This document shows, in pieces, positions 54,885 to 64,000 of a DNA stretch of 64,000 nt. Source of the DNA: Breoghania corrubedonensis (GTDB lineage: Bacteria; Pseudomonadota; Alphaproteobacteria; Rhizobiales; Stappiaceae); contig NZ_QAYG01000008.1 in assembly GCF_003053845.1 (NCBI RefSeq), positions 62,001 to 126,000 of the forward strand, read 5' to 3'. The position numbers and the translations under genes were made by a program. The notes under the pieces were generated by a model. The model saw only the letters and a list, made by a program, of their open reading frames with translations, made no database searches and was not told where the DNA came from. Position 1 is the first letter of the stretch, and each line of letters begins with the position of its first letter.

Positions 54885-56162
54885 ATGCTGGTGAAATTCA
54901 TGAGGACAACGACGGCGGCCGCGGTATTGGCGTTGAGTGCCACAGCCGCGCTCGCGGAGACAAAACCGTCAGAGGTCATCTCGACCTATGCCGATATCGC
55001 GCTTGCCGGCTACGAGGATTCTCTGACGACGGCGAAGGAGCTTGATGCCGCGATCGAAAAGCTGGTCGCCGCGCCGAGCGACGCCAGTCTCAAAGCGGCA
55101 CGCGAAGCCTGGCTCGCCGCCCGCATACCTTATCAGCAGACCGAGGCCTATCGTTTCGGCAACGCCATCGTCGATGATTGGGAGGGGCGGGTGAACGCCT
55201 GGCCGCTCGACGAGGGCCTGATTGACTACGTCGATGCGTCTTCCTATGGCGCGGAATCTGATGAAAACGAGCTCTATACGGCCAACGTGATCGCCAACAA
55301 GACGATCACGATCAATGGCGAGGAGGTCGATGCCTCCACGATCACGCCGGAATTTCTGGCAGGTACGTTGCAGGAAGCCGGCGATGTCGAAGCCAACGTG
55401 GCCACTGGCTATCACGCCATCGAGTTCCTGCTGTGGGGGCAGGATCTGAACGGCACAAATGCCGGTGCCGGCGCGCGTCCGGCAACCGACTTCGATCCTG
55501 CCAATTGCACGGGCGGAAATTGCGAGCGCCGCGCCGCATATCTGTCTTCGGCGTCCGATCTGTTGCTGACCGATCTTGAAGAGATGGTCGGCAATTGGAA
55601 GGACGGCGGCGCGGCGCGCACGGCGCTGATGGAAAACGGCGAAGCCGGAGCGCTTCGCACGATCCTGACAGGCATGGGCTCGCTGTCCTACGGCGAACTG
55701 GCGGGCGAGCGCATGAAGCTCGGTCTGCTGCTCCACGATCCGGAAGAAGAGCACGACTGCTTCTCCGACAACACCTTCAACTCGCACTACTACGACGCGC
55801 TTGGCATCAAGAACGTCTATGAGGGCCGCTACCAGCGTGTGGACGGGTCTATCGTGGAGGGGCCGAGTGTCGCCGATCTCGTCGGGGACGCCGATGCCGG
55901 GGTTGCCGAAGAGCTGGGCACCAAGCTTGAAGCCACGCATGCGGCCTTCACCGAGATGAAGAAACGCGGTGAAACGGTCGAGGCCTACGACCAGATGATC
56001 GGCGAGGGCAATGACGCGGGAAACGCCGTCGTTCAGGCCGCGATCAATGCGCTGATCGATCAGACCCGGTCAATCGAGCGTGCCGTGGCGGTTCTCGATC
56101 TGGAAGCGCTGGAAGTTGAGGGCTCCGATAGCCTAGACAACCCGGACGCCGTTTTTCAATAG
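54885..56162 (+). CDS. Imelysin family protein (M75-type, iron-related periplasmic protein)
   Basis: A 425-residue secreted protein with a Sec signal (cleavage after ALA, residue 24). It has the imelysin GxHxxE motif as G175-Y-H177-A-I-E180 followed by FLLWGQD, and the family segments REAWLAARIPYQQTEAYRFGN, WPLDEGLIDYV and DCFSDNT. Known relatives (IrpA, EfeO) act in iron acquisition; M75 peptidase activity is reported only for a few. SD AGGGGAG precedes ATG 54885. It heads a four-gene cluster with a di-heme oxidoreductase, a second imelysin and a DUF1513 protein, an arrangement linked to Fur-type control in other bacteria. Confidence 0.93.
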   Translation: MLVKFMRTTTAAAVLALSATAALAETKPSEVISTYADIALAGYEDSLTTAKELDAAIEKLVAAPSDASLKAAREAWLAARIPYQQTEAYRFGNAIVDDWEGRVNAWPLDEGLIDYVDASSYGAESDENELYTANVIANKTITINGEEVDASTITPEFLAGTLQEAGDVEANVATGYHAIEFLLWGQDLNGTNAGAGARPATDFDPANCTGGNCERRAAYLSSASDLLLTDLEEMVGNWKDGGAARTALMENGEAGALRTILTGMGSLSYGELAGERMKLGLLLHDPEEEHDCFSDNTFNSHYYDALGIKNVYEGRYQRVDGSIVEGPSVADLVGDADAGVAEELGTKLEATHAAFTEMKKRGETVEAYDQMIGEGNDAGNAVVQAAINALIDQTRSIERAVAVLDLEALEVEGSDSLDNPDAVFQ

Positions 56163-56344
56163 GACTGAATTAAGGGACGCGGGCGGTGCCGTTGTGCCGC
56201 CCGTCTTCCGTCCGTGAACCTTCGTCACGTCCGCCCGTCGCCGGGCAGCGCCACGAGGGGGTGCGGGCTGTTGCGCGTTTTCAGGGGAGGAGACCTTGTC
56301 GGCGCGCTTGTGACCACAGGACCAAGACAAGGAAGCCGACCCAC

Positions 56345-57916
56345 ATGATCCCGTTCCGGTCATGCCCAGCCGATCGCTTGTTGCGGGTTGCTCCCGTTCT
56401 TGCCGCCACGCTGACCGTCATCGCCTGTGCCGCTCTTGCCGTTTCGTGGCAGCCCGTGCGCGCTGACGGCGTTCTTTCCTGGCGCACCGATCTCACGCCG
56501 AAAGACCGTGCGCGCGTCGCCAAAGTGGTCAAGACGACCGGCGACTTTTCAAAGCCCGAACGCTTCGAGACGATGCAGGGCGGGGCAGCGACCTCGCGCA
56601 AGCTCGTCAACCGGGATGCCTTTTCCCAGTTTTCAGCCAATCTGACCTTCAAGCAGGAGCGCGACTTCAAGCTCGGCAATGCGCTTTTCCGCAAGCTTTG
56701 GGTTTCCTCGCCCTCCTCCACCAAGGCGTCCGACGGTCTCGGCCCTCTCTACAATTCAAGGGCCTGCCAGAACTGTCATCTGAAGGATGGACGCGGTCGT
56801 CCGCCGGGAGCCGACGAGATCGCCTCGTCCATGTTCCTGCGTCTTTCGGTGCCACCGCGCACCGATGCAGAGCGCGAGGCGATTGCCACCAAGGCGATGA
56901 TGCGGATCCCGGAACCGACCTATGGCGGTCAGCTTCAGGAATTCGCCGTTGGCGACCTCACCCCGGAAGGTCACATGCGCATTGCCTACGAGCCGGTCGC
57001 GGTCGCGCTCAATGGCGGCGAGACGGTGACGCTTCGCAAGCCAAGCTACACAATCACCGATCTTGGTTACGGCCCGATGGACCCGGAGGCGATGATTTCG
57101 CCGCGCGTGACGCCGCAGATGATCGGGCTGGGGCTGCTGGAGGCGATCCATCCCGGTGACATCATCGCGGGCGCCGACCTGGATGACGCCGATGGAGACG
57201 GCATCTCCGGCAAGGTTTCGTGGAACCGCAACCCGGATACCGGCGAGCCGATGATCGGCCGTTTCGGCTGGAAGGCGACCATGCCGACGGTGCATTCGCA
57301 GGCTGCCGACGCTTTCGCCGGCGACATCGGCATCGCGACCCCCTCTCACCCGGATCCGTGGGGCGATTGCACAACGGCACAGGCCGACTGCCGCTCCATG
57401 CCCTCGGGCATCCAGGCCAATCTCGGAGACACGGAAGCGCCGGACCCTGTGATGGAGCTTGTCGCGTTCTATTCCCGCAATCTCGCCGTGCCCATGCGCC
57501 GTAATGTCGACGACCGCCACGTTCTGGACGGAAAGGAACTCTTCCATGCGGCTGGGTGCGCGTCGTGCCACCGGCCGAAATTCGTCACCAGCCGCGAGGC
57601 GGAGCAGAAGCAGTTCCGCTTCCAGCTGATCTGGCCCTACACCGACATGCTGCTGCACGACATGGGGGAGGGGCTTGCGGACGGTCGTCCGGTGGGCGAC
57701 GCTACGGGACGTGAATGGCGCACCGCGCCGCTTTGGGGCTCCGGCCTGACGGAAACCGTCAACGGTCATACGATGATGCTGCACGACGGGCGGGCTCGCA
57801 ACGCGCTGGAGGCGATCCTGTGGCACGGCGGCGAAGCGAAAGCCGCCCGCGATGCGGTCGTCGCCATGGAGCCCGACGAGCGGGCCGCGCTTCTGCGTTT
57901 TCTGGAGTCGCTTTGA
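56345..57916 (+). CDS. Di-heme oxidoreductase family (DHOR, DUF1111) c-type cytochrome
   Basis: A 523-residue periplasmic cytochrome with a hydrophobic N-terminal signal (VLAATLTVIACAALAVSW). Two heme c sites are C141-Q-N-C144-H145 and C405-A-S-C408-H409. The region around FRKLWVSSPSSTKASDGLGPLYNSRACQNCH and the ATMPTVHSQAADAFAGDIGI block are typical of DUF1111 proteins, often called putative thiol oxidoreductases. It may oxidise or reduce a metal such as iron for the imelysin partners. ATG 56345 follows AAGGAAG; it overlaps the next gene by one base (TGATG). Confidence 0.92.
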   Translation: MIPFRSCPADRLLRVAPVLAATLTVIACAALAVSWQPVRADGVLSWRTDLTPKDRARVAKVVKTTGDFSKPERFETMQGGAATSRKLVNRDAFSQFSANLTFKQERDFKLGNALFRKLWVSSPSSTKASDGLGPLYNSRACQNCHLKDGRGRPPGADEIASSMFLRLSVPPRTDAEREAIATKAMMRIPEPTYGGQLQEFAVGDLTPEGHMRIAYEPVAVALNGGETVTLRKPSYTITDLGYGPMDPEAMISPRVTPQMIGLGLLEAIHPGDIIAGADLDDADGDGISGKVSWNRNPDTGEPMIGRFGWKATMPTVHSQAADAFAGDIGIATPSHPDPWGDCTTAQADCRSMPSGIQANLGDTEAPDPVMELVAFYSRNLAVPMRRNVDDRHVLDGKELFHAAGCASCHRPKFVTSREAEQKQFRFQLIWPYTDMLLHDMGEGLADGRPVGDATGREWRTAPLWGSGLTETVNGHTMMLHDGRARNALEAILWHGGEAKAARDAVVAMEPDERAALLRFLESL

Positions 57917-59010
57917 TGCCCACCCCCTTGATGCGCACAGGCCTTGCTCTCGCAGCCGCTCTTTGCCTTTGCGGTGCGGCGCGCGCGGACGGGACCGACG
58001 ACCATCACCGCTTCGTCGAAAACGCGATCGACGGTTACATCCGGCCGGAATTTCGGCGGTTCGCAGACAGCCTGCACGTTCTGGACGAGCGGATCGGCGC
58101 CTTCTGCTCGGCACCGGATGTGGCCGGCTATGACAACATGCGGGGCGCCTACAGCGATGCGCTGGCGGGTTTTGCCCGCGTCACCTTCCTGCGCTTTGGC
58201 CCGCTTGTCGAAGACCATCGGCTGGAGCGGCTTTTGTTCTGGCCGGATCGCAAATCGATCGGTCGCCGTCAGGCAGAGCAGGCGGTGCGTGAGCGCGACG
58301 ACAGCGTGCTGACCGTTGAAAGCCTGAAGGGAAAGAGCGTCGCCATGCAGGGTCTGCTGGCTTTGGAACCTGTCCTTTTCGACGATGCGCGCGAAAGTCT
58401 TCTTTCCGGCGGCGCGGACGCGGAATTCCGCTGTGGCTATGCGGATGCGATCGGCGACAATCTTGTCTCGATTTCCGATGGGATCGCGACCGAATGGGAA
58501 GCTCCTGACGGGTATGCGGCGCTGCTGCTCGCGCCGGGACCCGACAACATCGCCTTTCGTTCGGATCAGGAGGCGGCGAGCCAGGTGCTCGGCGGGCTGA
58601 CGACCGGCTTGCAGATCGTGCGGGATCAATGGATCGGCCCGATCCTCGGGCAGGGACCCGGGAAGCCGAAGCCACGCATGGCGCTCTTCCGCCGGTCCGG
58701 CAATTCGCTGGTGATGATTCGCGCCGGTGTCGAGGGCGTGAAGGACTATCTGGCCGCGCTTGAGGTCGAGCCGATGCTCGACGAGGAATACGCCTGGATG
58801 GGATCGTCCCTGCAGTTTGAGCTTTCCAGCGCTCTCAAGACGCTGGGCGAGATGAAAGAGCCGCTGACGAAGACGCTGCGAAAACGCGAAGCCTACGACA
58901 AGCTCGCCTTCATTGATGTTGTTTTGGACGGTGTCCGCGATAGCGCAGGCGAGGAACTGGCTGTCGCGTTGAAGATTCAGGTGGGGTTCAATGCGCTCGA
59001 CGGAGATTGA
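57916..59010 (+). CDS. Imelysin family protein, second copy
   Basis: A 364-residue secreted protein; the signal peptide (MRTGLALAAALCLCGAARA) ends near residue 24. The family fold is evident from LEPVLFDD and ATEWEAPDGYAALLLAPG, and TGLQIVRDQWIGPILG. The GxHxxE motif is altered: the matching positions are E99-D100-H101-R-L-E104 followed by RLLFWPD, so the Gly is replaced while His and Glu remain. Homologues in this gene position are usually shorter and more divergent than the first imelysin. It overlaps the DHOR stop by one base and the DUF1513 start by 20 bases. Confidence 0.88.
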   Translation: MPTPLMRTGLALAAALCLCGAARADGTDDHHRFVENAIDGYIRPEFRRFADSLHVLDERIGAFCSAPDVAGYDNMRGAYSDALAGFARVTFLRFGPLVEDHRLERLLFWPDRKSIGRRQAEQAVRERDDSVLTVESLKGKSVAMQGLLALEPVLFDDARESLLSGGADAEFRCGYADAIGDNLVSISDGIATEWEAPDGYAALLLAPGPDNIAFRSDQEAASQVLGGLTTGLQIVRDQWIGPILGQGPGKPKPRMALFRRSGNSLVMIRAGVEGVKDYLAALEVEPMLDEEYAWMGSSLQFELSSALKTLGEMKEPLTKTLRKREAYDKLAFIDVVLDGVRDSAGEELAVALKIQVGFNALDGD

Positions 59011-60115
59011 CCGCAGGTTGCTTCTGGCTGGTGCTGGTGCGGCCCTGCTTGCCGGGCTCGCCCCCCGGCAGCTTGCCGCGATGGAAGCGAACGACACGCT
59101 GTTCCTGTCAGCCCGGAAGGAGGGTGACAGCGGCTATGCGGTTGTTGTCTTCACGCCGGACGGCAAGGATGTGGTTCGCGTGCCGCTGCCGGGACGCGGG
59201 CACGACGTGACCCTGCATGCCGCGAGCGGGCGGGCGGTGGCGTTCGCGCGGCGGCCGGGCACCTTCGCCGCCGCGTTCGACGTTCTTGGCAAGCGTGCGC
59301 CGGTGTTCTTTTCCTCGCCGGAGGAACGCCATTTCTATGGCCACGGGGTCTATTCGCCAGACGGCAAGCTGCTTTACGCGACCGAGAACGACTTCGAAAA
59401 CGGCCAGGGATTCATCGGTGTCTATGACACGAGCGACGGCTATCGGCGGATCGCGGAGTTCGCGTCCGGCGGCGTGGGGCCACATGAGGTGCTGCTGGCT
59501 CCCGACGGGCGCACGCTCGTCGTCGCCAATGGCGGCATGGAAACCCATCCCGATTATGGTCGCACCATCCTCAACCTGCCAACGATGAAGCCGACACTCG
59601 CGCTCATCGACCGCCTCACCGGCGAGATCATCGCCTGCCATGATCTGGGCGAGAGCGAGCGACTGTCCTCTATCCGTCACATGACGATAGACGGGCATGG
59701 CTCGGTCTGGTTCGGTTGCCAGTTCCAGGGCGGCAAGACGGAGCGGCCGCAGCTCGTCGGCCGGCTGAAGCGCGGTGACGAGCCGGAGCTTATGTCCGCG
59801 CCGCAGGATATCCTGCGCGGCTTCAACAACTATATCGGCTCGGTCATGACCAGTCGGGACGGGGAAACGATCGCGACCTCCAGCCCACGCGGCGGACAGG
59901 TTGTCTACTGGAATGCGGCAAGCGGCGAGATCCTGGGGCGGGATCGTGTTGTGGATGGATGCGGCGTTGCGCCGAGGCCGTCCAACGACTTCCTGATCTC
60001 CGACGGGGCGGGCGAGTTGCTGGCCGGTGGGCCGGGCGATGGCGGTAAACCGGCCGTCATCGCGCGCAATTCATCGGTTGCGTGGGACAATCATATGGTG
60101 GGCTTTCGGGTTTGA
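58991..60115 (+). CDS. DUF1513 domain-containing periplasmic protein (beta-propeller-like)
   Basis: A 374-residue protein. The N-terminus has a Tat-like motif (DRRLLLAGAGAALLAGLAPRQLAA). The rest has beta-propeller-type repeats (RGHDVTLHAASGRAVAFARRPG; HFYGHGVYSPDGKLLYATENDF; GPHEVLLAPDGRTLVVANGGMETHPDYGR; HMTIDGHGSVWFGCQFQG) as in DUF1513. No enzymatic role is established. It is the fourth gene of the imelysin/DHOR cluster and overlaps the second imelysin gene by 20 bases, so translation is probably coupled. Confidence 0.9.
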   Translation: MRSTEIDRRLLLAGAGAALLAGLAPRQLAAMEANDTLFLSARKEGDSGYAVVVFTPDGKDVVRVPLPGRGHDVTLHAASGRAVAFARRPGTFAAAFDVLGKRAPVFFSSPEERHFYGHGVYSPDGKLLYATENDFENGQGFIGVYDTSDGYRRIAEFASGGVGPHEVLLAPDGRTLVVANGGMETHPDYGRTILNLPTMKPTLALIDRLTGEIIACHDLGESERLSSIRHMTIDGHGSVWFGCQFQGGKTERPQLVGRLKRGDEPELMSAPQDILRGFNNYIGSVMTSRDGETIATSSPRGGQVVYWNAASGEILGRDRVVDGCGVAPRPSNDFLISDGAGELLAGGPGDGGKPAVIARNSSVAWDNHMVGFRV

Positions 60116-60662: not shown

Positions 60663-61589
60663 TCACAGCTCGTGCAGCACATGCGCGGCGCGCACCGCGG
60701 CCGAGGCGCGGTTTTCCACGCCGAGCTTGGCGTAGATCTGTTCCAGATGCTTGTTCACGGTACGTGGCGAAAGTCCCAGGATTTCGCCGATATCCCGGTT
60801 CGACTTGCCCTTGGCGATCCACAGCAGCACTTCCGCCTCGCGGCCTGTCAGGGAGAAGTGCTCGCGCAGGGTCCCGGCCTGGTTTGGATGGTCGGCGGTG
60901 GTGAGGCGGAAGAGATATTCCTCCACCCCGATCGTGCCCAGGTGATGGAACTGCACCTCTGCCCCATTGCCAAGGCCGATGGTCATCGTCGCCGTCTGAC
61001 CGGCGGGGCGCTCTGCGCCCGAAGCGATCCACGCCGCCAACTCATGGCCAAGATCGGCGAGCGCCTCCTCGCGGCCCGTCATCGCCTTCAGCACCTGCTG
61101 GGCTTGCGGGGTTGACCACACGACCTGACCGGAAGGCGCAACGGCGAGCAGATGACGGCCCGCCGCATCCAGTGCGATGCGGGCATTCTGGACCGAACGC
61201 GCATTGGCGAGATGCACCCGGATGCGGGCCTGAAGCTCATCGATATTAATGGGTTTGGTCAGATAGTCCACGCCGCCGGATTCCAACGCGTGAACCACAT
61301 GCTCGGTTTCCGTTAGCCCGGTCATGAAGATCACCGGCACATGGGCGAGGGCGGCGTCGGTCTTGATGCGGCGGCACGCCTCGAAACCGTCCATGCCGGG
61401 CATGACCGCATCCATCAACACGATATCGGGGGTTACCCGGCTGGAGATCGCGAGCGCCGCTTCGCCGCTTGTCGCGACGAGCACGGTAATGCCAGCCTGT
61501 TCCAGCGCGCTCGTCAGGAAGCCGAGCGCCTCGGGAGAATCGTCGACGACGAGCACGATGTCGCGCTGGCGGAGCGCATTACTCGGCAT
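60663..61589 (-). CDS. Response regulator with LuxR-type HTH, and PAS-like middle
   Basis: A 308-residue regulator. Residues 8-125 are a receiver domain (LVVDDSPEALGF; phosphoacceptor D60 in LMDAVMPGMDGFEAC; VDYLTKPI). Residues about 140-230 include ARIALDAAGRHLLAVAPSGQVVWSTPQAQQVL, which resembles a PAS domain. The C-terminal LuxR helix-turn-helix is LTGREAEVLLWIAKGKSNRDIGEILGLSPRTVNKHLEQIYAKLGV. Its ATG 61589 overlaps the stop of the transporter-kinase gene (61579), so it is the probable partner and output of that kinase. Confidence 0.93.
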   Translation of the reverse strand: MPSNALRQRDIVLVVDDSPEALGFLTSALEQAGITVLVATSGEAALAISSRVTPDIVLMDAVMPGMDGFEACRRIKTDAALAHVPVIFMTGLTETEHVVHALESGGVDYLTKPINIDELQARIRVHLANARSVQNARIALDAAGRHLLAVAPSGQVVWSTPQAQQVLKAMTGREEALADLGHELAAWIASGAERPAGQTATMTIGLGNGAEVQFHHLGTIGVEEYLFRLTTADHPNQAGTLREHFSLTGREAEVLLWIAKGKSNRDIGEILGLSPRTVNKHLEQIYAKLGVENRASAAVRAAHVLHEL

Positions 61590-64000
61590 GGTCCAGGCTC
61601 TCCAGTGTTTGCGTGTAGCGGGCGAAGTCGAAGGCCTGAATGTGCCCGCGCAAGGTTGCGACGATGGCTCCGTTGCCGGGCGTCTCGGCCAGTTCCTCCA
61701 GCTTGGCTTCGATCCCGCGCACGTAGCCGATTTCGCCAAGGTTGATAAGCTCGCGTACCGCGCGTGCGCTCAGGGCATGGCCTTCGGTTTCGCGGGGCGC
61801 GCCGCCGCGTGTCCCTTCTTGCGAAATGTCGGGGCCGCCGGATCCCGTTTCCGCTGCAAGCTGGTCCGCGTCGAGCCACTCCAGTCCCAGGTGCTTGCCG
61901 AGCTTGTCGAGAAGCTGGCGCATGTCGAAAGGCTTGGCGAGCGTGTCGTCGTGGCGTGCATCCTCCTCTATCGCGGAGGCGCCGTCGCCGATATTGGCCG
62001 AGAGCATGATGGCGGGAGCCGTGTGGCCGAGGGCGCGCAGGCGGCAGAGCAGGTCCCATCCGCTCATGCCGGGCATGAAGATGTCGAGCAGGAAGGCGTC
62101 GGGTCGGATACCGGAGACCAGTTCGAGCGCCCTGGGGCCGTCATCGGCGGTCAGTACAGTGAAACCGAGCGGCTGAAGGATCTCCTGCATCAGGTCGCGG
62201 TGATCGGCATTGTCATCGACCACGACAATGGTGCGGCGCGTCCCGGCATAGCCCGCGATCCGCCGATCCGCCGTCTTCGAGGGCGTGGCGATCGAGGAGA
62301 GCATCAGCCGTACGCGGAACGTGCTGCCTTCTCCGCGCGCGCTCGTCAGGGAAATCTCACCGCCCAGCGTTTCCGCCAGAAGTTTGGTGATGGTCAGGCC
62401 GAGGCCGAGGCCCGGCGTCAGGGACCGGCCGTCTTCTTCGCCGCGGCCGAAGGGTTCGAACACCTTGGCCTGATCGGTGGCGGCGATGCCGCGTCCGGTA
62501 TCCGAGACGGTGAAGCTTGCGACCTGCGAGCGGTAGTCGACCGCCAGTGCGATCCTGCCCGTTTCCGTGAACTTGATGGCGTTGGAAAGCAGGTTGACCA
62601 GGATCTGCCTGAGCCGCTTTTCATCGGTGCGCACGAAGAGGGGAAGGCTGGGGGAGCGCACATAGTCGAAGGCGAGCCTCTTGGCGGCGGCTTGCGGGCG
62701 GAACATGTCGACGATCTGATCCAGAAAATCCTGAATGTTGATCTCGTTGGAATAGACCTGCAACCGTCCGGCCTCGATGCGCGAAATATCCAGCAGGCCA
62801 TCGATCAGCCCGGAAAGATGTTCGGCGGAGCGCCTGATCACCTTGATGCCCGCCTCGGTGGGGGCAGGATTGCCATCGGAGCGCTCCAGCACCTGGGCAT
62901 AGCCCAGAACCGCGTTGAGCGGCGTTCGCAGCTCGTGGCTGAGGCCGACGACATAGCGGCTTTTGGCGAGGTTCGCGGCCTCCGCCACTTCCTTGGCGCG
63001 TTGCAGTTCCGCGTCCGTCCGCTGATGGGCTTCGATTTCCTTCAGCAGCAGGGCGTTCTGGCGCAGCGATTCCTCTTCCGCGACGTGGCGCGTGTCGTGG
63101 GCGAGCACCAGAAACCAGGTGGCGATACCGGTGATGATCGCGAAGACGAAGAAGATCAGCGTCACCGTCTCGCCGACGAGCGTCGCCTCGCCCGGCCGTC
63201 CCGCCGTCGCCTGCTGGTAGATCACGGCCAGCAGCAGGCCGATGGCGGCGATAGCGAACGTCGAGGTCAGGGCGTAGCGCCCGAGCCGGGTCCCGAGCCG
63301 GCTCACCAGCCAGCCGGGCAGCAACCGGTCGGCCGCGGCTCCGATCTGGCGGGCGAGACGCGCATCGGGCTTGCAAAGGTCGTGGCAGCGCGCATCGAGG
63401 GAGCAGCACAGCGAGCAGATCGGCCTCTGGTAGGCCGGGCAGTAGGCCATGTCCTCCGGCTCAAACGCGTTCTCGCAGATGGAGCAGGTCAGGGAGGGGA
63501 GGGTCTGCCAGTGCGGGCGCGGTTTGCGGGCGAGGTAGTAGCGCCCGCGCGTGGCGAAGGCGATGAGGGGAACCGTGACATAGGCGACGCCCATGGCGAT
63601 GAAGGTGGAGAGAGCGGCGGCGGCCGCGCCGAAATGACCGGCATGGGCAATCAGCGCGATGGTCGTCGCGAGTGCCACGGCACCGGTGCCCACGGGGTTG
63701 ATATCGTACAGATGGGCGCGCTTGAACTCGATGCCGGGCGGCGAAAGACCAAGCGGCTTGTTGATGAAGAGATCCGATGAAATGGCGGAAAGCCAGGCCA
63801 TGGCGATGATGGAGAAGACGCCGAGCGTTTCCTCCAGCACCCGGTAGATGCCGAGCTCCATCAACAAAAGCGCGATGGAAACGTTGAAGACTAGCCAGAC
63901 CACCCGACCGGGGTGGCTGTGGGTCAGTCGGGAAAAGAAGTTCGACCAGGCGAGCGAGCCCGCATAGGCGTTCATGACGTTTATCTTGAGCTGCGAGACG
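61579..64000 (-). CDS. NCS1 transporter-histidine kinase-receiver fusion (N-terminus beyond window)
   Basis: The frame is open through the window edge, so the N-terminus is missing; the visible part is about 806 residues. It opens KINVMNAYAGSLAWSNFF, SRLTHSHPGRVVWLVFN and INKPLGLSPPGIEFKRAHLYDINPVG, which match the C-terminal half of NCS1 permeases for purines, cytosine or allantoin. Eight cysteines follow in a 38-residue stretch (63373-63486; C-x2-C, C, C-x2-CC, C, C), resembling a zinc ribbon. Two more membrane helices, HisKA (H347 counted from ATG 63975, LSHELRTPLNAVLGYA), HATPase (NLLSNAIKFT) and a receiver (D631 in LLDIFMPG) come next. The C-terminal about 100 residues are Hpt-like or linker. 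The partner regulator gene overlaps. Confidence 0.9.
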   Translation of the reverse strand, partial: VSQLKINVMNAYAGSLAWSNFFSRLTHSHPGRVVWLVFNVSIALLLMELGIYRVLEETLGVFSIIAMAWLSAISSDLFINKPLGLSPPGIEFKRAHLYDINPVGTGAVALATTIALIAHAGHFGAAAAALSTFIAMGVAYVTVPLIAFATRGRYYLARKPRPHWQTLPSLTCSICENAFEPEDMAYCPAYQRPICSLCCSLDARCHDLCKPDARLARQIGAAADRLLPGWLVSRLGTRLGRYALTSTFAIAAIGLLLAVIYQQATAGRPGEATLVGETVTLIFFVFAIITGIATWFLVLAHDTRHVAEEESLRQNALLLKEIEAHQRTDAELQRAKEVAEAANLAKSRYVVGLSHELRTPLNAVLGYAQVLERSDGNPAPTEAGIKVIRRSAEHLSGLIDGLLDISRIEAGRLQVYSNEINIQDFLDQIVDMFRPQAAAKRLAFDYVRSPSLPLFVRTDEKRLRQILVNLLSNAIKFTETGRIALAVDYRSQVASFTVSDTGRGIAATDQAKVFEPFGRGEEDGRSLTPGLGLGLTITKLLAETLGGEISLTSARGEGSTFRVRLMLSSIATPSKTADRRIAGYAGTRRTIVVVDDNADHRDLMQEILQPLGFTVLTADDGPRALELVSGIRPDAFLLDIFMPGMSGWDLLCRLRALGHTAPAIMLSANIGDGASAIEEDARHDDTLAKPFDMRQLLDKLGKHLGLEWLDADQLAAETGSGGPDISQEGTRGGAPRETEGHALSARAVRELINLGEIGYVRGIEAKLEELAETPGNGAIVATLRGHIQAFDFARYTQTLESLDHAE

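Follow-up and report, generated by a model that had tools for sequence, protein, structure and literature searches.

An NCS1-like permease head on a hybrid histidine kinase: a putative sensor of urea and short-chain amides

To our knowledge, the transporter types that serve as heads of histidine kinases are SLC5 and Amt. The SLC5/STAC kinases CbrA, CrbS and RpuS carry a LeuT-fold transporter head on a kinase; CrbS and RpuS are hybrid kinases whose LuxR-type partners are reported to act on a utilisation or transport promoter through a repeat in the DNA (PMC5715377, PMC9100948). In Ks-Amt5 an uptake transporter for a small nitrogen compound is reported to have been reused as the sensory module of a kinase (PMC5764959). 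Here we describe a gene at the end of a 64,000-nucleotide stretch of the Breoghania corrubedonensis genome (contig NZ_QAYG01000008.1, positions 62,001 to 126,000; hereafter the window) which likewise places a LeuT-fold transporter head, in this case NCS1-like, on a hybrid histidine kinase, so that NCS1 joins SLC5 and Amt as a type of kinase head. The encoded protein is a real and widely conserved fused sensor. We consider it probable that it is a two-component sensor of urea and/or short-chain amides, the sensing domain of which is a former NCS1-type permease of those compounds. What can be read directly from the DNA is a fused architecture, a LuxR-type regulator conserved as partner, the recurrent placement beside genes for urea or amide uptake and breakdown, and a palindrome near the start of the uptake operon; the signal is likely to be urea or a short-chain amide and the output the urt or fmd operon. 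In Methylophilus, both amides and urea induce FmdDEF expression, and we know of no urea or small-amide receptor established as controlling urt or fmd operons in these lineages. The locus supplies a candidate receptor, its partner, an operator and free-standing permease cousins.

Architecture and distribution of the fused sensor

The open reading frame (ORF) at 61579-63999 on the minus strand is open at the window edge, and the genome sequence continues it to an ATG at 65004, giving a single ORF of 1141 amino acids (61579-65004 in window numbering, minus strand). The features referred to below are the following.

61579-64000, minus strand: NCS1-like hybrid sensor kinase gene, part within the window (whole gene to 65004)
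63526-64000, minus strand: visible C-terminal part of the NCS1-like head, residues ~336-493 (AlphaFold2 model and fold searches)
63964-63993, minus strand: motif Q338-x-K340-I341-N342-x-x-N345-x-Y347 in transmembrane helix 8 (TM8; alignments)
63373-63486, minus strand: eight-cysteine ribbon, residues 507-544 (alignments of homologues)
63088-63288, minus strand: two extra helices, residues 573-639, between ribbon and kinase (AlphaFold2 model)
62767-62964, minus strand: HisKA, residues 681-746, with phospho-acceptor H690 (above Pfam cut-off)
62299-62628, minus strand: HATPase_c, residues 793-902 (above Pfam cut-off)
61900-62229, minus strand: receiver domain (Response_reg), residues 926-1035, with D974 (above Pfam cut-off)
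60663-61589, minus strand: LuxR/NarL-type response regulator (Response_reg and GerE by Pfam; the choice of start is our reading)
65205-65220, outside the window, in window numbering: palindrome TACGTCAATCGACGTA, proposed operator, upstream of the kinase gene
65222-71169, plus strand, outside the window: urtABCDE operon, divergent from the kinase gene (NCBIfam TIGR03407-03411, all above cut-off)

A HisKA domain with its histidine, the HATPase, the receiver aspartate and an adjacent GerE regulator together identify a hybrid histidine kinase. Read from its Met51, the regulator starts at 61589, 11 nt within the 3' end of the kinase gene; the start listed for it, a TTG at 61739, probably lies too far upstream. 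About 100 residues follow the receiver. An Hpt domain was considered for this tail and set aside, since it contains no invariant histidine (the best column reaches 81 of 123). A Pfam scan of residues 500-680 gave no match, and the helix pair was not compared with STAC.

The sequence-only reading of the window had proposed an NCS1 permease fused to a kinase from what was visible up to 64000. Once the ORF is extended the upstream half is indeed present, and on its AlphaFold2 model (pLDDT 79, pTM 0.81) the head has an NCS1-type LeuT fold. Foldseek places CodB and Mhp1 chains at ranks 1-5, and structural alignment gives Z 32.7 with CodB (398 of 400 residues, rmsd 3.4) and 29.4, 27.9 and 26.1 with Mhp1; the next other family, AgcS, has Z 26.1, equal to the lowest Mhp1 row. 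Profile-profile alignment with hhalign matched the head to NCS1 with E 1.7e-15 and 8.2e-15 in the first run and, against an improved NCS1 set, with prob 98.6-98.7 and E 3e-16 to 5e-16, the controls UrtC and UrtB having prob 0.2-0.3. A hidden Markov model (HMM) built from 34 NCS1 sequences scored the window protein at 51.0 bits (filters off) and the UrtB/UrtC rows shown below 0. The kinase-free permease L202 bridges the gap to the curated family: it is found by the head profile at E 3e-46 and by PF02133 at 36.4 bits (cut-off 23.5). PF02133 itself matches neither the window protein at E<=0.01 nor any of 22 heads at E<=5, an NCBIfam scan gave no NCS1 match to the head among the best 25 of 142 rows, a PDB profile search with the head found no transporter, and identity to CodB and Mhp1 is 14-16%. 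Because curated PF02133 fails while the fold, profile-profile, wider-HMM and bridge routes succeed, the head is named NCS1-like. It is not SLC5, judging from SLC5 structures that rank below CodB and Mhp1 and from a profile match to NCS1 (no SLC5 profile was compared).

Homologues are carried by 26 of 385 genomes of the class, counting the window's own and one truncated copy, and, at E<=0.001, by 56 of 398 genomes of the phylum, where a small number of the matches are fragments or lack the kinase. Species genomes yield at least 571 coding matches. On plasmids, the head is matched in 531 of 72,556 records, 342 of them from Klebsiella, with a few kinase-free relatives or pieces included. Conservation was assessed over 123 fused heads, from which the truncated copy L058 was excluded. 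H690 is kept in every one and D974 in 121, the two exceptions having no receiver domain. A LuxR-type regulator stands on the same strand within 4.5 kb of the kinase in 121 of the 123 homologous loci (it is absent in L206 and L207), which supports the overlapping regulator, named in the earlier reading as the probable output, as the partner. Two aberrant copies may be recorded here: in L058:9437-10159 (G326) the head gene is shortened to ~240 aa with a regulator still nearby, and at L205:8857-10713 (G645) a homologous kinase has no NCS1 head, retains the helix pair and begins with a short Cys-rich segment (CCNLDVCCTNNC).

Gene context and the proposed operator

The context test covered 128 loci, 123 of which have a fused head above 400 bits; the five excluded are the truncated L058, the free permease L202, and L203-L205, which have no head match. 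Urea-type UrtA accompanies 80 of the fused loci and fmd-type UrtA 27, the other 16 having no UrtA within the stretch. FmdA occurs in 24 of the fmd-type loci, FmdB in 23 and AmiF in nine. For FmdA, the L034 protein was tested and proved to be an NCBIfam formamidase equivalog; because the UrtA of the same locus also passes the urea UrtA cut-off, the label 'fmd-type' rests on similarity and on FmdA. ureC is present in six urt-type loci. Among the 16 loci without UrtA, five carry ureC and ureG, L206 and L207 carry FmdA/FmdB, L132 carries AmiF and eight carry none of these; two of the ureC/ureG loci, L212 and L221, also carry urtB-E or urtC-E, the urt operon leaving the stretch. The genome of the window also encodes a urease. 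In Sinorhizobium meliloti, urtABCDE lies three small genes from the kinase on pSymB, and in the one Klebsiella plasmid record in which the neighbours of a fused gene were read (NZ_CP069875) urtABCDE and a formamidase gene are divergent from the kinase. This cluster is similar to the UrtABC/AmiF urea transport system that is discussed for a urinary-tract lineage (PMC13060141).

Four genomes with two copies were read: G605, G520 and G725 have one copy by fmd and the other by urea genes, and both copies of G460 are next to fmd genes. In a 59-head tree the urea/amide label, assigned by us with 'urea' covering urease loci, changes at least five times; several lineages have therefore switched between just urea and amide contexts. 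No convincing code for urea versus amide specificity emerged in the pocket columns compared, and the columns that best separate the contexts are 613, in the last helix pair, and 406, in the model helix 386-415.

This context bears on the ligand named in the sequence-only reading, a nucleobase-like compound such as a purine, allantoin or hydantoin. The head fold is nearest to CodB and Mhp1, kinase-free relatives go under the names 'allantoin permease' or 'cytosine permease', and distant relatives adjoin hydantoinase genes, all of which would suit such a ligand. However, urea and short-chain-amide genes are the recurrent neighbours of the fused forms, and no purine, allantoin or hydantoin gene was met in the annotated fused-form neighbourhoods read, in which no systematic search for such genes was made. 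The heads also lack a counterpart of Mhp1 W117 and W220, which we take to be the Trp pair sandwiching hydantoin: in the hhalign alignment these correspond to head positions 129 (Leu in 82 and Phe in 41 of 123) and 243 (Met, Val, Ile, Leu, Thr or Ser), with no aromatic pair. A nucleobase-like ligand is thus very improbable, and the claim has been dropped here in favour of urea or short-chain amides.

The intergenic regions share the palindrome TACGY-N6-RCGTA. It is found near urtA, in a zone that reaches from 300 nt upstream of the extrapolated UrtA start to 130 nt past it, in 91 of the 107 loci with UrtA (by type, urt loci account for 71 of 80 and fmd loci for 20 of 27; 31 of 45 where heads are <86% identical). 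By comparison, 47 control palindromes averaged 0.38 loci, and the highest count among them was 12 (a GATC palindrome). In the 38 loci with the kinase more than 1 kb from urtA, it stands by urtA in 32 and by the kinase in three. The stricter form TACGTN6ACGTA has three sites in the 5.33-Mb genome of the window, one of them at this locus, and its backward control none; the other two adjoin ORFs for which inspection by eye shows no clear connection with urea or amides, and these sites may be there by chance. Away from the sensor, the plus-strand genes at window positions 54885-60115 look, from their sequences, like a putative iron-uptake set of an imelysin, a di-haem protein and a second imelysin.

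Pocket, kinase-free permeases and cysteine ribbon

The residues E133, Q245, E248, Q249, D251, R254, Q338, K340, N342, N345 and Y347 are each present in 123 of 123 heads. The pair K340-I341 aligns with Mhp1 S312/T313 and CodB T278/T279, which we take to have sodium-site roles. This register was decided by nine concordant HMMER alignments, the initial hhalign TM8 register having been off by one residue relative to CodB, not to Mhp1. In 13 kinase-free relatives position 340 is Lys in eight and Arg in five. Since the sodium-site hydroxyl pair is not universal among NCS1 proteins themselves (34-sequence set), its loss alone is a weak point and the invariant lysine the stronger one; with K340 at a sodium-site position, the head should therefore not need sodium. 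The whole set of pocket residues is shared with eight of the 13 kinase-free permeases, and the remaining five, more distant ones keep E133, D251, R254, Q338, Arg at 340, N342, N345 and Y347. E57 in TM1 behaves differently: it is found in 122 of the 122 fused heads that cover the site and in none of the 13 kinase-free relatives, which have Phe, Gln, Val or Leu. In these alignments Glu57 marks the fused forms, and a sensor-specific glutamate suggests that transport has been lowered or lost in favour of reception.

Two other views of the head have to be weighed against these residues. It could still be a working permease, a true transceptor in the manner of CbrA for histidine, with signalling that follows transport and a sodium-site lysine that couples to protons. 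This is a tenable view, to which we give rather less credence than to a receptor: the pocket is common to fused and most kinase-free forms, and CbrA is reported to transport histidine with a lysine, K196, in its Na2 site, to which K340 is comparably placed (PMC13022988), yet the distribution of E57 suggests an altered function, a dedicated ABC transporter is encoded next door, and Ks-Amt5 is described as a transporter head that binds without translocation (PMC5764959, PMC8534201). Alternatively, the head may be a degenerate anchor on a kinase that answers nitrogen status, ammonium or the flux through the ABC transporter. The reported NtrBC dependence of urea-type ABC transporter genes in Pseudomonas putida (PMC9311074) and the SLC5 domain of CbrA, reported as non-essential for signal perception (PMC9100948), are in keeping with it, but a degenerate anchor would not keep pocket residues invariant over 123 heads, and we regard this view as unlikely.

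The kinase-free relatives suggest what the head once did. Neighbours were read for 13 (L202, L226, L234, L235, L272, L273, L274, L275, L276, L277, L278, L279 and L280), the unannotated L230-L232 not being scanned for neighbours. Eleven of the 13 adjoin, or sit within ~1 kb of, genes for urease, formamidase, amidase or nitrilase; with L234, L272 and L273, near-identical Acinetobacter copies, counted once, the figure is nine of 11. In Klebsiella pneumoniae NZ_CP129771 a 'cytosine permease' (L275:4956-6563), 75% identical to the Acinetobacter one, follows directly after ureEFG and is a candidate secondary urea permease. A plasmid of Methylovirgula sp. HY1 (L279:1-9391) clusters a fused sensor, a regulator, a free eight-Cys permease, an aliphatic amidase and a formamidase, a natural receptor/permease pair for comparison. 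Genes of the AmiC/AmiR kind adjoin the G553 permease, and similar ones lie by a Pantoea permease. A single origin of the fusion was not accepted as a shown fact, the tree having one change with a support of just 71/19.

The ribbon cysteines are residues 507, 510, 522, 530, 533, 534, 540 and 544. All eight are present in 25 of 26 rows and in 105 of 106 rows of a larger set, the odd row in each being the truncated L058, which ends earlier; with L058 excluded the count is 123 of 123 homologues. The earlier reading, which placed an eight-cysteine module at 63373-63486 between membrane part and kinase, is borne out. Both conditions that it named as refuting, an upstream sequence without the first half of an NCS1 domain and cysteines that vary among homologues, were checked, and neither applies. 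The module is not an input domain peculiar to the kinase, since kinase-free permeases carry it at their C-terminus. The Acinetobacter permease, 40% identical to the window protein over head and ribbon, stops directly after C-x2-C...C-x2-C. A ribbon survey of 13 kinase-free sequences, a set that overlaps the 13 neighbourhood contexts without being identical to them, found the eight cysteines complete in one, from Methylovirgula. Five remain in Streptomyces angustmyceticus and four in the permeases of Acinetobacter, Klebsiella, Moraxella, Paracoccus and Rhodococcus USK10; Tsukamurella and two Arthrobacter permeases keep the ribbon flanks and a single cysteine, and the L202-group permeases (n=3) have no ribbon tail. 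From this pattern the module probably derives from the permease. The cysteine spacing has two CxxC-type knuckles, and fold matches to the ribbon are weak throughout, none being significant (best Foldseek E 0.28, best Z 3.4), with many zinc modules (RING, LIM, PHD, FYVE) among them; from the cysteine pattern a structural zinc module is favoured. That the module is a redox or metal input (zinc or Fe-S) in its own right would suit eight invariant cysteines and the weak zinc-module matches; we nevertheless doubt it strongly, given its presence in kinase-free permeases and the three actinobacterial ones that retain the same flanks with one cysteine, from which it follows that the permease can do without metal. 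In a distant permease of Streptomyces NBC_01727 (L225:9944-11938) a Cys tail is followed by an SCP2-type domain, beside genes for nitroimidazole nitrohydrolase and a xanthine-dehydrogenase-like protein.

Several observations count against a urea or amide sensor. Eight fused loci have none of the neighbours sought (L046, L048, L049, L053, L117, L121, L126 and L219): the first three come from one genus and, with L053 and L117, are full stretches, the last three being contig ends, and L117 and L121 have weak ABC-ATPase matches only. L206 and L207 (G460, G557) are short forms of 894 and 899 aa, near FmdA/FmdB and without receiver or adjacent regulator. The palindrome is missing from 16 of the 107 loci with UrtA and from 12 of the 16 without, lying near the kinase in the other four; all five urease loci without UrtA lack it with two mismatches allowed, L212 and L221 having their urt operon off the stretch. 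L226, among biotin-type genes, and L277 are kinase-free permeases with unrelated neighbours, and four more distant relatives have hydantoinase, 5-oxoprolinase or xanthine-dehydrogenase-like neighbours. Residues that line the pocket in TM1, 3, 6 and 8 hardly differ between urea and amide contexts, and gene context cannot tell urea from formamide or acetamide. The locus counts overstate independence because the loci are mutually related. The report on the SLC5 domain of CbrA noted above points the same way, and no functional study of this kinase (binding, transport or expression) was recognised in the open-licence PMC literature as judged by titles and abstract starts.

Proposed mechanism and known systems

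In a urea or amide sensor of this build, the ligand would enter the LeuT-fold pocket lined by the eleven invariant residues, and closure of the head would push the ribbon and helix pair against the kinase dimer. H690 would autophosphorylate and pass the phosphate to the LuxR-type regulator, directly or with D974 as a modulator, and the regulator would bind TACGTC-N4-GACGTA and activate transcription of urt (or fmd). On the wider evolutionary scale we see the balance as even for the following proposal: an unrecognised NCS1 branch of urea and short-chain-amide permeases with a C-terminal Cys ribbon became a receptor, perhaps once, when it was fused to a kinase and acquired Glu57; today it runs a conserved urea/amide regulon via TACGTC-N4-GACGTA across Pseudomonadota, that of the urea/formamide uptake locus on Klebsiella plasmids included. 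Fused and free forms together offer a clean comparison with which to ask how a carrier turns into a receptor.

The S. meliloti pSymB counterparts are probably SMb20609 and SMb20610, going by gene order with the dct genes next door, for which we relied on the SMb numbers that we take the dct genes to have. SMb20609 is described as a histidine kinase, directly controlled by PhaR and functionally uncharacterised, and SMb20610 as a response regulator (PMC12542648, 2025). Control by PhaR, the PHB regulator, may tie urea/amide sensing to carbon storage. PMC9311074, the one paper in which NCS1, histidine kinase, urea and fusion occur together, names an NCS1 transporter in a table only.

Among described systems, control of amide use is shared with AmiC/AmiR, which differs in being reported as a soluble binding protein and an antiterminator, without a kinase (PMC13209695). 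Ks-Amt5 has an Amt fold, and the excerpt of its description mentions no ribbon (PMC5764959). CodB and Mhp1 resemble the head in fold (Z 32.7 and 29.4) and by profile homology; unlike them, it has no sodium-site hydroxyl pair and no Trp sandwich, and it carries extra C-terminal domains. The lysine reported in the Na2 site of CbrA resembles K340 (PMC13022988). CrbS/R and RpuS/R are the nearest working analogues, from which the present system differs, as from SLC5/STAC kinases generally, in its NCS1-like head, in an eight-Cys ribbon and helix pair at the point where those kinases have STAC, and in its neighbours and operator.

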